30,114 bases of DNA from a virus, in the IMG/VR virus record IMGVR_UViG_3300042914_001458, positions 1 through 30,114 of that record. One strand, written 5' to 3'. Positions 3,572 to 19,653 of this stretch are shown here, piece by piece. A program made the translations under genes and the position numbers. Position 1 is the first letter of the stretch, and every line of letters starts with the position of its first letter. The notes beneath the pieces are model-generated. The model had not been told where the DNA came from. It ran no database searches and saw only the letters and a program-made list of their open reading frames with translations.

Positions 3572-4233
3572 AGTTCGTCAAGTATTGATAATTGATTTAC
3601 ATCTGACTTTCTAAATATATTCAAAGCCGTTTCAAGTATTGTTTTCCCTGCTTCATAATCTACTAAGTTACGCGACATTTTGTCAATCCTTTGAGTTCCT
3701 TTATATTTTCTAAAATCATAATCGTGAAATTCACACCATTGAGTAACTTCATCTTTTCCTCCCATAATTGAACATTTTCTTTCGTTTATATTATTTGGTA
3801 AATTAAAATTTGTCCAATACAAATGCCTTCCTCTTTTTTGAGCTGGTATTAATGGCTCGTAATACGGATTTACATTTTCAATACAATATTTACCTTCAAA
3901 ATGGTGTTTAAGAAAAATAATTTCTTGATATAACATCATATTTGGATATTCAGGTTTATAAAAATCTTGATTCTTTTGAGTAAATCGAACTTTTGAATGA
4001 GTTGGACACGGTGGCGAACTCCAAATAAAATCAAACTCTTTGTAATGGTCTAATAAATATTGGTGTGCGTCTGCTATAATTACTTTGTCATTCGGAAAAC
4101 GTTCTTTGTATAAACGTGCTGCTTCCGGGTCAAGTTCAACAGCTGTTATTTCTAAGTTGTCTGCAACCTCATCCCACTTATAACGATTACCACCTAAACA
4201 AGCGTATAAATTAAGTATTCTATATTTCTTCAT
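3568..4233 (-). CDS. Short C5-cytosine DNA methyltransferase
   Basis: The 221-residue protein is a compact C5-type methyltransferase. Motif I is NLYACLGGNRYKW (8-20), the acidic motif II is AVELD (31-35), the catalytic motif IV is SSPPCPTHS (72-80) with Cys76, motif VI is IENVNP (118-123), and motif VIII is AQKRGRHLYW (131-140). It differs from the 338-residue methyltransferase at 28893-29909: it is about a third shorter and lacks a recognisable large target-recognition domain, so the two are not simple duplicates. No restriction enzyme is nearby. The gene is coupled on both sides by ATGA overlaps and lies between a coiled-coil gene and ninG. A role in protecting replicating phage DNA is inferred. 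Confidence 0.85.
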   Translation of the reverse strand: MKKYRILNLYACLGGNRYKWDEVADNLEITAVELDPEAARLYKERFPNDKVIIADAHQYLLDHYKEFDFIWSSPPCPTHSKVRFTQKNQDFYKPEYPNMMLYQEIIFLKHHFEGKYCIENVNPYYEPLIPAQKRGRHLYWTNFNLPNNINERKCSIMGGKDEVTQWCEFHDYDFRKYKGTQRIDKMSRNLVDYEAGKTILETALNIFRKSDVNQLSILDEL

Positions 4234-4524: not shown

Positions 4525-5550
4525 TTAAAATGGATTTTCGTTTGCTAATCTAATCTTTTCACTTGCTGACATTAAACCACCACCCCAATTTAAAGCTGAT
4601 TGTCCGTCTTTATCTATTATTGGTTCGGGTTGTTTAGGTTTAATTTCTTGTTTTTCTTCACTTGCAAAAACTTTTACAAATCTATTATTTTCTAAACTAT
4701 CAAAATAATAACATAAAGTTGCTTTATCAAATTTTATCTTTAAATTACCTACTTCACCATTTGAACGTGGTTTAATTTTATGAAATATAATATCTGCTTC
4801 ATTATATTCATGATTTTCACGATGTACTGTTATCATGCACTTTCCTGAATTATACCATTCACTACCACCCTTTAAGTCATACGGGCTTGGTGGATTTCTT
4901 TTTCCGTTTTCTTTTTCAGTCAACTTAGGGTGTATAATTGTGTGAAAATGTAAATTGTTTTCTTCTGCTAAATAATTTCTTAAAGGTAAAATATATTCTA
5001 AATATTGTGCATAACCTCCATAGGTTGCATAATCGTGGTTTAAATCTTTCCAGCTATCTATTGAAGCTGTATGTAATTCTTTTTCGTACTTTAATTCAAC
5101 AGCCCATTCCCAAAATTCCTTAGGTGTTATTTTTCCTTTTGTGTTTTTTCGTGTTATGATATTAAAATGATTTAATACCCACTCCATTCCCATTGTAATT
5201 TCTAAATCAGTAATTACATTTTCTGCGTTTGGATCAAAACTTTTACCCGTCTTTTTCTGAATTAAATCCGCTACAATTTCAGTTGTATTACCAACATCAG
5301 GAAAATAAACTAAATGTTTCCAACTATAAAACTTTGAAGTATTAATTAAACATTCCATTAATACCTGTGTCTTACCACTTTGAGGAAATCCAGTCCAATC
5401 AGTACAGTTGCCTAAACTCATTGAATAGTATTTATGAAGTTCAACAAAGCCTAAATATTTTCCTTTGTTATGGTAATTATCTCGGTGTTTATATAGCTTA
5501 CTTACTACATCACCTTGTTCTGTTATTTTAAATCCTTCAATCATTGCCAA
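4525..5550 (-). CDS. RecA/DnaB-fold ATPase, likely replicative helicase
   Basis: This 341-residue protein carries a P-loop GFPQSGKT (54-61) and a Walker B-like strand ending TASIDSW (161-167). A later strand HFHTIIHPKLTE (201-212) is followed by a loop SPYDLKGGSEWYNSGKCMITVHR (222-244). This layout, with a late 'L.GGSEWYNSGKC...V.R' segment and a C-terminal VGNLKIKFDKATLCYYF strand, matches the RecA-like motor domain of SF4/DnaB-type helicases. No large N-terminal primase-binding domain is present, so it is a minimal motor. The C-terminal 60 residues form a proline- and lysine-rich linker and tail. It follows the DUF6291 gene by a 10-base overlap, the usual loader-then-helicase order. Helicase is the best reading; a RecA-like recombination ATPase is the alternative. 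Confidence 0.75.
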   Translation of the reverse strand: MAMIEGFKITEQGDVVSKLYKHRDNYHNKGKYLGFVELHKYYSMSLGNCTDWTGFPQSGKTQVLMECLINTSKFYSWKHLVYFPDVGNTTEIVADLIQKKTGKSFDPNAENVITDLEITMGMEWVLNHFNIITRKNTKGKITPKEFWEWAVELKYEKELHTASIDSWKDLNHDYATYGGYAQYLEYILPLRNYLAEENNLHFHTIIHPKLTEKENGKRNPPSPYDLKGGSEWYNSGKCMITVHRENHEYNEADIIFHKIKPRSNGEVGNLKIKFDKATLCYYFDSLENNRFVKVFASEEKQEIKPKQPEPIIDKDGQSALNWGGGLMSASEKIRLANENPF

Positions 5551-6152
5551 GCGAATTTAAAATTATTTTCTTTTGGTCTATTTTCATTTAGGTATTTTTC
5601 AAAATTAGCAGGTCTTAAAAAATGATCGGGTGTTGCATTTTTATTTTCTATTACCCAAACGTTATTAATCATATTTTCAAAAGCTAAACTCCATTCATCA
5701 GTAGTGTATTTATCCAATAACTTTTTTAAATTATTTTCTGTTTGGTTGTTTAAGGTTCTAAATTTGGTTTGAGGTTTCCCGTGTTTTGTAAATTCAGCAT
5801 TAAACCAATTCAAAAATTTATTTACACGTTCCTGAAAAGGAACTATAATAGATTCTTCTTTCTCTTTCTCTTTCTCTTTTAATTGTACCGTAGGGGCTTT
5901 AATACCCCCTTGCGTACCCCCTTCGGTAGGGTCTTGTAAAGGTTCTTTAGTTTTATTTTCGTAACCTTCAATTTGCCTATCAATAGAATGCTTTTGAGAA
6001 AGATAAGCGAATTTAACCATACCTTCTAAGTCAGTTTCAACACCAGTAAATTGTCGCTTCATTAAAGCATCGTAAAATGCTAAACGGTCTTTGTCGTTTA
6101 ATTCATTTGCTACGTTCCAATAGCTACGATAAAAATTAAATGTTTTTCTCAT
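5541..6152 (-). CDS. DUF6291-type replication initiator / helicase-loader-like protein
   Basis: The 203-residue protein begins with NFYRSYWNVANELNDKDRLA (6-25) and FYDALMKRQFTG (26-37). These are hallmarks of the DUF6291 domain found at the start of many phage replication proteins. A low-complexity linker (about 66-100) carries EGGTQGG and a lysine/glutamate repeat (92-100). The C-terminal part (105-190) is helical, with NWFNAEFTKHGKPQTKFRTL and 'ATPDHFLRPANFEKYL', resembling the C-terminal domain of DnaD/phage replisome organisers. The position directly before the helicase supports a helicase-loading role. The DNA of the linker contains an unusual hexanucleotide repeat and G-rich runs. DUF6291 assignment is recognition; loader function is inference. 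Confidence 0.75.
   Translation of the reverse strand: MRKTFNFYRSYWNVANELNDKDRLAFYDALMKRQFTGVETDLEGMVKFAYLSQKHSIDRQIEGYENKTKEPLQDPTEGGTQGGIKAPTVQLKEKEKEKEESIIVPFQERVNKFLNWFNAEFTKHGKPQTKFRTLNNQTENNLKKLLDKYTTDEWSLAFENMINNVWVIENKNATPDHFLRPANFEKYLNENRPKENNFKFAWQ
5859..5876 (-). repeat. Hexanucleotide microsatellite (TTTCTC x3) in the linker of the replication protein
   Basis: Three perfect copies of TTTCTC on the plus strand (GAGAAA on the coding strand), flanked by partial copies, encode the alternating Lys/Glu run of the replication-initiator linker. Because the unit is six bases, gain or loss of copies would keep the frame and only change linker length. Confidence 0.7.
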
Positions 6153-6348
6153 CTTCTATTAGTGCTATTTGTTTACGTAATTCCTTGCTTAATTTTATAG
6201 CTGTTTCTTTATCTAAACAAATAAAATGCTCGGCATTGAAATGCATATCAATTCCAATATAAATTTCTTGATGAGTATTACAAAAACATCTTAATTCGTG
6301 ATCGGTTGTTTCTGATTTTTCAGAACCATAAAAAATAATTTGTACCAT
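6136..6348 (-). CDS. 70-residue phage protein, unknown function
   Basis: The small protein begins MVQIIFYGSEKSETTDHELRC-type and has a beta-rich first half with two cysteines close together (CFC). It ends in an amphipathic helix, DKETAIKLSKELRKQIALIE, over residues 46-65. A strand 'FICLD' followed by 'xTAIKLxKELRKxI' is a recurrent ending of small Bacteroidota phage proteins. It is the first gene after the terminator/attenuator at 6393-6424 and overlaps the DUF6291 gene by 17 bases, so it would lead the replication transcript. It has no signal peptide or membrane segment. The function is unknown. Confidence 0.7.
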   Translation of the reverse strand: MVQIIFYGSEKSETTDHELRCFCNTHQEIYIGIDMHFNAEHFICLDKETAIKLSKELRKQIALIEDEKNI

Positions 6349-6360
6349 TTTGGTTGTAAA

Positions 6361-6375
6361 GGTTTTCAGAAAACC
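6361..6375. repeat. Perfect inverted repeat GGTTTT-CAG-AAAACC upstream of the replication operon
   Basis: A six-base-pair perfect palindrome with a three-base centre lies 13 bases before the first gene of the replication operon and 17 bases after the terminator T-run. In RNA it would form a small hairpin in the leader; as DNA it could be an operator. The sequence does not show which. Confidence 0.5.
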
Positions 6376-6392: not shown

Positions 6393-6424
6393 AAAAAAAA
6401 CCCCTTAAATCCTTTGGGGCTTCA
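6393..6424 (-). terminator. Rho-independent terminator/attenuator before the replication operon
   Basis: On the minus strand AAGCCCC (6422-6416), an 11-base loop and GGGGTTT (6404-6398) form a seven-pair stem with one G-U pair. The T-run continues to 6393, giving a typical intrinsic terminator. Its 5' arm is also part of a longer-range 9-base inverted repeat with 6472-6480, so the stem has a competing partner. Confidence 0.7.
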
Positions 6425-6486
6425 CATCCAAATTCATTAAGAGGCTTAATAACTTCTTTTCAGTTCTATAGTGTGAAGCCGAACCG
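6393..6486 (-). ncRNA. Candidate structured leader/small RNA with its own promoter and terminator
   Basis: Between a -7 promoter element (6498-6491) and the terminator ending at 6393 is a sequence of about 90 bases with no plausible gene. Its 5' end, GGCTTCACA (6480-6472), is a perfect 9-base complement of TGTGAAGCC (6426-6418). Inside lies a perfect 6-bp hairpin ATTAAG-CCT-CTTAAT (6450-6436). The downstream arm of the 9-bp stem overlaps the 5' arm of the terminator stem, so the two structures exclude each other. This is the arrangement of an attenuator, or of a short stable RNA. Boundaries are inferred from the promoter and terminator and are approximate. Confidence 0.45.
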
Positions 6487-6490
6487 TGTA

Positions 6491-6518
6491 CAAATATACA
6501 AATAATTATTTAATCAAA
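6491..6518 (-). promoter_or_regulatory. Bacteroidota-type promoter in front of the structured RNA (TATATTTG)
   Basis: TATATTTG followed by T (6498-6491) is an exact TAnnTTTGY match. A TTTG (6518-6515) lies 16 bases upstream, shorter than the usual spacing of about 19, so the -33 assignment is weak. The element overlaps the last codons of the 44-residue gene. Confidence 0.5.
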
Positions 6519-6644
6519 CTCGTTGTTTATCCAAATTTTTATTAATTTTCTTTTCCAGTATTTTTCTATTCTTAAATTCCTTACCATTAATGATTGGTGT
6601 CTAAACCTTGTTAGGTTTCTGCGTTTCTTCATTCGTTTTTTCAT
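6510..6644 (-). CDS. 44-residue, extremely basic small protein
   Basis: A short frame beginning MKKRMKKRRNLTRFRHQ encodes 44 residues. About a third are lysine or arginine, mostly at the N-terminus, with a C-terminal WKRKLIKIWINNEFD. It was identified by reading the gap after the 95-residue gene: its ATG overlaps that gene's TGA in an ATGA arrangement, the same coupling used throughout this cluster, which is the main support. The composition suggests nucleic-acid binding or a ribosomal-protein-like peptide, but this is only inference. The last codons overlap the candidate promoter for the structured RNA. It could alternatively be spurious, since A-rich DNA gives lysine-rich frames easily. Confidence 0.55.
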   Translation of the reverse strand: MKKRMKKRRNLTRFRHQSLMVRNLRIEKYWKRKLIKIWINNEFD

Positions 6645-10230: not shown

Positions 10231-10532
10231 CTTACAAGTGCAACAGACCCTGATGTTAATGTAATCTTTTCAAATACTTTTCCTGCTTCTGGAGTTATAA
10301 TTGCACCTGCTTTTACCGCTGTTGCCGGAGCTGCAATATAAACTGATTTTACATCAATAAAAATACCTTTTAATTTAATTGAACTAAATACAGTATCTTG
10401 TAACACTACAATTGCACGACAATCATAAACCTTTTCAGCGGTATTATTTAATATAAATGTTCCATTACCACCAGAGATAACAGACATGCTTCCATTTGAT
10501 GAGCTTAATTCTAAAACAGTTGGTGATGCCAT
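10227..10532 (-). CDS. Small beta-rich tail protein
   Basis: The 101-residue protein is rich in serine, glycine, valine and alanine with alternating hydrophobic strands: TVLELSSSNGSMSVISGGNG, FILNNTAEKVYDCRAIVVLQ, LKGIFIDVKSVYIAAPA and KITLTSGSVALV. It has the look of a compact beta-sandwich such as a fibre cap or decoration protein. The stop overlaps the start of the receptor-binding-type gene by four bases. A -7-like promoter element lies 16 bases before the ATG. There is no signal peptide. The exact role is unknown, but its position between the tail-tip and fibre genes makes it a virion component with fair probability. Confidence 0.7.
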   Translation of the reverse strand: MASPTVLELSSSNGSMSVISGGNGTFILNNTAEKVYDCRAIVVLQDTVFSSIKLKGIFIDVKSVYIAAPATAVKAGAIITPEAGKVFEKITLTSGSVALVR

Positions 10533-18800: not shown

Positions 18801-19653
18801 TAATATTTTTTGCATCAATACCTAACTGGCCTCCAATTTTTGCTATTTGCTGCAATCCCGTTATACTTGTTCGCGTGTCAATTTTTAATAATTCCTGACT
18901 TAAATCACGCGCAGCTTGTGTTGAAACATTTAAAGTTTTTGCCATATCAGCGGCATTCTCATCAAAACTCTTTAATGTTTGATCAGCCTTAGTTATTACC
19001 GTGCCAACCCCAAATGCAATACCAAGTTGAGCCAAACCGTCTTGTAAAGTACTTATGGCACCTGTATAATTACCTACATTTCTTTGATGTTGCCCTACAG
19101 TTGCATCAACTTGTTTTAATTTTGTATCTAACTGCGTAATATTTTGAAGTAATAATTTACCCTCTGCTGTATTTTCTTTATTTTGAACCGCTAAATCTTT
19201 ATATCTTTTTCGTAATTCATTTAATTGATTACTCATTTTAGAATATGCACTGGTTTCTCTTTCGGCGTTTTTTGCAGCCTTTTCAGATTCTTTAGCCAAA
19301 CGGGCTCTTTCTTGTGCTTCCGCTTTTTGTGTTTTTATTCTATCCTGAGCTAATTTTTCTTGTTCTCTTTCGCTTTTTATTGCCTGTTGTCTAACTTGTT
19401 CTTTAAGTTTTTCAATTTCAATTGATTGCTTTTGAATTTTATTGGCTTCGGCTGTTGCTTGTGTGAATTTCTTTATTGATTCAGAACTATCAAATTTAGC
19501 ACCGCTCAAAGATTGTTTTAATGTAACGGCAGTTTGTTTAAATTCCTCATTGATTTTATTTAAACTTACTAAAGTTTTTTCAGCACTATCCCTTATTCCT
19601 TTGAATATATCTTCCTGATCGAATAAATCTCTGCTACTTATTTTTTTTGCCAT
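15844..19653 (-). CDS. Phage tail tape measure protein (TP901-type core)
   Basis: This 1269-residue protein sets the tail length in siphoviruses. It opens with a long coiled coil (about 20-190, rich in Lys/Glu/Gln/Ala). A TP901-like core at about 195-480 includes QHQRNVGNYTGAISTLQDGL (189-208 area) and the repeated GGVGIPLGLTSSQILGLSST type segment. Hydrophobic helices lie at about 534-575 and 628-649, followed by a second very long coiled coil. The C-terminus has the glycine-rich, histidine-containing GGFHAILHPNERVIPKSLN, a recurrent ending of Bacteroidota tape measures. The usual rule of about 1.5 angstrom per residue gives roughly 190 nm of tail. The start overlaps the upstream chaperone-position gene by 20 bases. 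Confidence 0.92.
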   Translation of the reverse strand: MAKKISSRDLFDQEDIFKGIRDSAEKTLVSLNKINEEFKQTAVTLKQSLSGAKFDSSESIKKFTQATAEANKIQKQSIEIEKLKEQVRQQAIKSEREQEKLAQDRIKTQKAEAQERARLAKESEKAAKNAERETSAYSKMSNQLNELRKRYKDLAVQNKENTAEGKLLLQNITQLDTKLKQVDATVGQHQRNVGNYTGAISTLQDGLAQLGIAFGVGTVITKADQTLKSFDENAADMAKTLNVSTQAARDLSQELLKIDTRTSITGLQQIAKIGGQLGIDAKNIIGFTQSIDKLNVALGDEFQGGAEEITSVVGGLRNVLGDIKTKNVSQDLLNIGNALNVLGAEGSATSPIISDFAGRIGGVGIPLGLTSSQILGLSSTLQELNVSAERGGTAVSGILKKMAENTEGFSKIAGMNAAEFANLVNTDLMGAFMKVIEGTKQFQGNAVGLATALDSLKLDGAGASEVLLKLSTNTDLLTKRTDQAGKALKSTTSITDEFTKKNETLQAKTDKLKNAIDKYILGIDESGNVTGKFGAVLDFLAANLGTIINLAIKAATAWLTYQAALKAVQAYQFIMSGGLREIGQQIAAQIPQTRAYRLEQIQLARAQQQTGVAATQAGSAVSGFGQAFKSIAIVTIIAGVIELAMAWWDVASNAKAAREEQELTAKAQADGAKKAQEYNSKSRQNLDKELNNIQRLRNENKISQAEFLKQKEALLKKTQSSLTTEIELEKKKKTTSDKTIKANEKTIKDYNELIKLEPKLAGEYGKRVDYLKDQNAKLRAGIKGSDAAIKEYNADLSNLGEEVKDATSEIVVNSQAHQKNTKEIKTNVKAKQEMRDLTREIRDEQIKQIEDEKTRRITEVIENAKRRKQDLDKEVTNAKQKAQLKLLIEENMLIEIGQITDEYSQIEYDKEKEAQAKLEDLKNQAIQNEKKRQDELLNEAEAFTEERQRLFMSDQEKEMRDLNDWYFEKKVMFKDNQQALEDIEIIYLNRRNDINLKYQESEIEANQKNQDKLKEDEKEANKQRWESIEEFGQKTTDYFKEQSEQRIAQIDKEIAAAEKQADFYRELAAQGNIDAEQSLAEQQKIIAEGNRKKEQEQRKQQQLEMANTLLQTYSNYAAEDPKTALTKTISDATVLWTFIKSLPMFYDGTEDTGKNGRGVDGKGGFHAILHPNERVIPKSLNDQIGGLTNEELTRIATQYQSGRLIGQDVMHSSLELAVLVNEMKDLKEVIKRKPETNIELGEITQSAMEIVKSTRQGNTIVYNRFKVRK

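Follow-up and report, generated by a model that had tools for sequence, protein, structure and literature searches.

A compact structured RNA, in which the loop of a 5'-terminal hairpin is complementary to the apical loop of a predicted intrinsic terminator, was found between a promoter and the replication operon of a 30-kb virus record (IMG/VR IMGVR_UViG_3300042914_001458, analysed over its whole stretch of 30,114 nt and referred to here as the window). Four helices of the element covary among relatives, no second TAnnTTTG box lies between it and the downstream gene, and it probably acts in cis as a transcription attenuator, in the form of a promoter-proximal kissing-loop terminator. The genes of the window include NinG, Erf, an exonuclease, and a methyltransferase, and its closest similarity is to Flavobacterium phages. 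The element occupies the minus-strand gap between a 95-aa gene (6928-6641) and a 70-aa gene (6348-6136), and its features are collected in the table.

Table. Features of the element and of the operon that follows it, in window coordinates.
Feature	Position	Strand	Basis or remark
TTTG, candidate -33 element	6515..6518	-	16 nt 5' of the -7 box; from sequence
TATATTTG, sigma-A -7 box	6491..6498	-	from sequence
Predicted RNA, ~94 nt, predicted +1 to end of U run	6393..6486	-	sequence, fold, covariation, PMC9723704
P1, 5'-terminal hairpin CGGUUC[GGCUUCACACUAUA]GAACUG (arms 6486-6481 and 6466-6461)	6461..6486	-	covariation
Kissing strand 1, GGCUUCAC(A), inside P1 loop	6472..6480	-	complementary to strand 2; 19 versions in relatives
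Linker, A/U-rich, conserved, between P1 and terminator	6448..6460	-	alignments of relatives
Terminator hairpin, P2 + P3	6398..6447	-	minimum-energy fold; compensatory changes in P2 and P3
Kissing strand 2, (U)GUGAAGCC, inside terminator apical loop	6418..6426	-	19-version loop comparison
U run (T8) of intrinsic terminator, directly after P2	6393..6400	-	sequence
First downstream gene, 70 aa, ATG 44 nt past U run	6136..6348	-	no TAnnTTTG between
Second gene, 203 aa, DUF6291 N-terminus, replication-protein position	5541..6152	-	Pfam PF19808, E=1.5e-9
Third gene, RecA/DnaB-like ATPase, resembles helicase part of primase/helicases	4525..5550	-	phrog_239, phrog_18375

An earlier, sequence-only reading of this interval had described a promoter element, a 9-bp perfect inverted repeat, a 6-bp internal hairpin, and a terminator sharing bases with the long repeat. 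The promoter box (6498-6491) and the perfect repeat (6480-6472 with 6426-6418) are both present on the minus strand as claimed. The sigma-A -7 box TAnnTTTG of F. psychrophilum is located at -12 to -5 (PMC9723704), and the start site is accordingly predicted at 6486, which is the first base of P1. In nearly all members a TAnnTTTG lies 16-21 nt upstream of the kissing strand. The TTTG at 6518-6515 is a candidate -33 element, in line with the usual layout of Bacteroidota promoters.

The element is larger than first described, P1 (CGGUUC/GAACUG, 6486-6481 with 6466-6461) having been absent from that account. The terminator hairpin consists of P2 (AAGCCUCUUAA/UUAAGGGGUUU, 6447-6437 with 6408-6398) and a P3 cap (UUUGG/CCAAA, 6432-6428 with 6417-6413), which are separated by a purine-rich internal loop (UGAA/GGAU). 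The minimum-energy fold comprises P1 and P2/P3 at -21.7 kcal/mol, a folding energy that by itself is unremarkable (z = -1.25). The 9-bp repeat (GGCUUCACA/UGUGAAGCC; duplex -13.9 kcal/mol) corresponds to pairing of the P1 loop with the P3 loop over 8-9 bp. The predicted P2/P3 structure, a stable hairpin with the U run right after it, has the form of an intrinsic terminator, and the two loops have that of a kissing interaction, being complementary and covarying (19 versions) with their pairing outside stems that themselves covary.

Of the terminator proposed earlier, the U run (T8, 6400-6393) was retained, but the stem named for it (AAGCCCC/GGGGUUU, 6422-6416 with 6404-6398; -9.0 kcal/mol) was not: it shares its 3' arm with P2 but has the weaker partner, and it showed zero covariation and 85% pairing in relatives, P2 covarying instead. 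Covariation, which had been suggested as a check on both stems, was found for the 9-bp loop pairing but not for the named terminator stem. The 6-bp hairpin (6450-6445 with 6441-6436) exists in the sequence, but its conservation (85% paired among relatives) was not above that of shuffles on most measures. When the growing RNA was folded without pseudoknots, P1 formed first, the long pairing dominated at 72-88 nt, and P1 together with the terminator did so from 92 nt.

Relatives were drawn from IMG/VR by sequence patterns and protein neighbours. Dozens of Bacteroidota phage contigs contain one, as do the isolated phages FL-1, FCL-2, FCV-3, and Cellulophaga phi19:1. The close-member alignment contained 24 distinct sequences, in which 99.3% of cells were paired in the full structure, kiss included, and two-sided (compensatory) changes occurred at 9 pairs (30 cells). 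The observed covariation was reached by 0 of 500 shuffles, and slid controls collapsed. Pair types in P1 among relatives were G-C, G-U, A-U, U-A and C-G, U-A, and both P2 and P3 showed compensatory changes. The kissing sequence GGCUUCAC/GUGAAGCC was invariant across the 24 close members, partly because it had been fixed by the search patterns. Two pattern matches in genome contigs were rejected as GC-rich alphaproteobacterial sequence without the remainder of the RNA, and BLAST similarity to Cellulophaga phi38:1, Calle, Campylobacter, and crAss-like phages was confined to a promoter-like stretch.

A covariance model from which the kissing pairs had been left out was applied to loci obtained only through protein homology. 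Loci retrieved solely in this way have the element at the same place, divergent members being detected just 5' of the gene. The resulting alignment (43 members) was fitted without the loop-loop pairing. New loop pairs in divergent members included CATCTCAC/GTGAGATG, GATTCGAC/GTCGAATC, CGTCTCAC/GTGAGACG, CATCCTAC/GTAGGATG, and GATACCAC/GTGGTATC, and short-loop forms included GTGCAG/CTGCAC, GGGCAG/CTGCCC, and CGGTCAA/TTGACCG. Among the 43 members there were 19 distinct loop versions, a few of which are length variants of one sequence; each version paired with its own partner over a mean of 7.5 bp versus 3.9 bp with swapped partners, and the own-partner sum was reached by 0 of 2000 permutations. 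For two of the 19 versions (L044 and L155) the model alignment was wrong, and their actual pairing is 8-9 bp. In relatives, whose loops measure 6 to 14 nt, the loop-loop pairing comes close to the ends of P1 and P3 but does not extend past the edges of the loops. The AUUAUA-type residues of the P1 loop (6467-6471) and the A/U linker (6448-6460) stay constant while the kissing bases change, a constancy for which base pairing gives no explanation.

Phage DNA was also scanned using a descriptor composed of a P1 of at least 4 bp, loop-loop pairing of at least 6, and a capped terminator with a U run. The window element scores 32, and scores of at least 32 are so rare in shuffled phage DNA (14 matches in 102 Mb) that the element is not attributed to chance. 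Shuffled phage genomes gave 3.1 matches per Mb at a score of at least 28 and 0.9 at a score of at least 30; because of this background, isolated matches near 28 need positional support. Matches in FL-1 (at 18940, score 30), FCL-2 (at 37494, score 28), and Cellulophaga phi19:1 (at 10373, score 31) are each located shortly 3' of a TAnnTTTG and 5' of a replication-type operon, and FL-1 has an extra match of lower score at 3714. Zero matches were obtained in lambda and T7, and no convincing element was seen on examination of Riemerella CRP19, phage 1/32, and lillamy9-1. A match was present in 37 of 48 loci chosen by the 70-aa gene; the match listed for one of these (L024) is another site, its true element having been identified separately. 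Among the loci without a match, the sequence 5' of the gene is too short in one, and several have looser versions recognised by eye and left uncounted (for example, GTAAGAC/GTCTTAC in L031 and AAGTAGAGAG/CTCTCTACTT in L028). In L031, L026, L027/L028, L039/L043, and L045/L046, the region 5' of the 70-aa gene shows larger terminator loops or weaker U runs, with complementary loop segments.

A same-strand gene, usually the first replication gene, starts 0-44 nt after the U run in 38 loci (median 20), and up to 49 nt after it in a separate comparison of members. The earlier proposal of a compact structured RNA between promoter and terminator ahead of the replication operon is supported, as is its attenuator-like placement. 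No TAnnTTTG was found between the RNA and the start codon in any member examined, the lone 'inner' TAnnTTTG of L055 falling beyond the ATG. The downstream families are unrelated and include DUF6291, a DnaD-like loader, a replisome organizer-like protein, a Prim-Pol primase, a helicase-like ATPase, Phg_2220_C, NUMOD4-HNH, and, in one case, a DNA methyltransferase. Because the RNA is kept before unrelated genes and is not followed by a TAnnTTTG, regulation of the next gene in cis is its most plausible function. It is possible that promoters of other types exist between the RNA and the ATG, and a leader prone to recombination could persist beside a variety of modules while regulating none of them. 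Copies of another kind are located 4-5 nt 5' of NUMOD4-HNH homing endonuclease genes (L112:5348-5935, minus strand; L076:3245-3510, judged from its sequence only; and L150, FCV-3, near 2477, minus strand), with the loop pairs GTTACGG/CCGTAAC and GTAGTGC/GCACTAC. The copy in L112 is additional to that before its replication operon.

According to the proposed mechanism, host RNA polymerase would start at ~6486 and make P1 first, after which 8 bases of the emerging terminator loop would pair with the P1 loop. P3/P2 would then close around the loop-loop contact and transcription would stop in the U run, the product being a stable and compact transcript of ~94 nt. The replication operon, which begins 44 nt downstream without a visible promoter of its own, would depend entirely on read-through for its transcription. 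Control would therefore probably be exerted at the loop-loop contact, with the extent of read-through determined by a factor, a ligand, or a change in transcription speed that abolishes or modifies the kiss. Because the pairing stays within both loops, the kiss most likely coexists with the terminator rather than excluding it. Since pairing up to the loop borders fits such a coexisting complex, the favoured view is that the kiss supports the terminator by default and that a signal or factor permits read-through. The opposite sign is possible: the kiss might oppose termination, given that nested folds predict the long pairing just before the terminator closes.

The transcript might instead be a free-standing stable small RNA, its ends locked and protected by the contact between P1 and the terminator, that acts in trans through the A/U linker or by protein binding, the operon being expressed from elsewhere or by leak. 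This would agree with its own promoter and terminator, with a P1 predicted to begin at +1, and with the conserved linker and P1-loop AUUAUA, but it is an unlikely account of an RNA that always lies directly 5' of a same-strand gene (median 20 nt to the ATG), with too little space downstream for a standard promoter, and that in some phages has a second copy with a different kissing sequence before an HNH gene. Moreover, the loops have no surplus targets in the phage contigs: other sites for the kissing 7-8-mers numbered 3 in the same contigs versus 6.7 expected, and loop-mediated targeting in trans is therefore not indicated.

The sequence-only reading had held the 9-bp stem and the terminator to be mutually exclusive. 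In a switch of that kind the long-range pairing would form first and block the terminator, so that anti-termination is the default and breaking the pairing permits termination. The two do cross in pseudoknot-free folds, and the order of the nested folds is in its favour, the long pairing prevailing at 72-88 nt and the terminator not before 92 nt. An anti-terminator would, however, be expected to invade the terminator stem, whereas the pairing is confined to loops, even those of 6 nt, and P2/P3 are kept by compensatory changes, which for P3 would be pointless if it never formed alongside the kiss. A conserved anti-terminator helix invading the terminator stem was sought and rejected, as the 6-bp hairpin lacks clear covariation and the loop pairing lies outside P2/P3; a switch of this kind is accordingly considered improbable, more so than a small RNA. 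Least credible, and scarcely to be expected, is that the replication module opens with an origin of replication or a primer RNA in place of a gene regulator. The location before replication genes would suit it, and the kissing hairpins resemble ColE1 RNA I/II, but a like architecture is found before HNH endonuclease genes away from the operon start and before a methyltransferase gene, and the RNA ends in a predicted intrinsic terminator.

The earlier statement that no known RNA family is recognisable was borne out by Rfam 15 (4227 families), which gave 0 matches in the window at gathering and permissive thresholds. Over 18 divergent loci the sole Rfam match was an unrelated tRNA elsewhere, and neither riboswitch families nor c4 antisense RNA (RF01695) matched in the window or in those loci. 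No description of such an element was found in the open-access literature searched. Terminators, kissing loops, and attenuators are each known; the combination in which a terminator apical loop is held by a 5'-terminal hairpin, recurrently before phage replication operons, is not known from that literature. As in leader intrinsic terminators and attenuators, a promoter-proximal hairpin and U run stand right before the controlled genes, but here the terminator apical loop pairs with the 5'-terminal hairpin, and neither a leader peptide nor an anti-terminator helix is conserved. Short leader peptides were rejected, frames starting within the RNA not being conserved across members. Purine (guanine) and other kissing-loop riboswitches likewise combine a terminator with a leader RNA in which two loops of the same molecule touch, whereas here the kiss involves the terminator loop itself, without an enclosing three-way junction and without an Rfam match.

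In phages P1 and P7, the complementary loops of c4 antisense RNA, inside one transcription unit, control downstream genes; c4 is processed into a distinct antisense RNA that targets the ant leader, whereas both loops of the present element are in one 94-nt RNA. The HK022 put RNA and lambda nutR/tR1 are elements at the start of early operons that decide whether polymerase reaches the replication genes, but put and nut alter polymerase to pass later terminators, whereas here the terminator belongs to the element, and the sequence is unrelated. Kissing loops and attenuation also control replication genes in plasmid copy-number attenuators (pT181, pIP501) and ColE1 RNA I/II, which use a separate antisense RNA where the present pairing partner is in cis. 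The element may, tentatively, represent a previously undescribed class of regulated terminators that is spread through the phages of Bacteroidota. Members of that class would share an architecture in which the hairpin at the 5' end controls termination through a kiss with the apical loop, their pairing sequences would drift freely, and they would stand before replication genes and homing endonucleases as an RNA-based gate, in a role analogous to that of lambda N/tR1.

The element provides a concrete candidate regulatory RNA for Bacteroidota phages, in which early gene control is little known, and is testable in the isolated phages FCL-2, FL-1, and phi19:1. Control of termination through a terminator loop engaged by a remote hairpin is uncommon and offers a clean system for co-transcriptional folding, and the drifting yet matched loop pairs amount to many natural compensatory mutants. 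Two further features were noted beside the RNA. A conserved GGTTTTCTGAAAACC hairpin (window 6361-6375, minus strand), located between the terminator and the 70-aa gene, recurs in L015, L005, and L013, has modified counterparts 5' of other 70-aa genes, and is possibly a translational control element. A very basic 44-aa frame beginning MKKRMKKRRNLTRFRHQ (window 6510-6644, minus strand) ends within the promoter and had no PHROG match; comparable frames lie 5' of the RNA in several relatives, and it is a candidate for an RNA-binding or anti-termination peptide.
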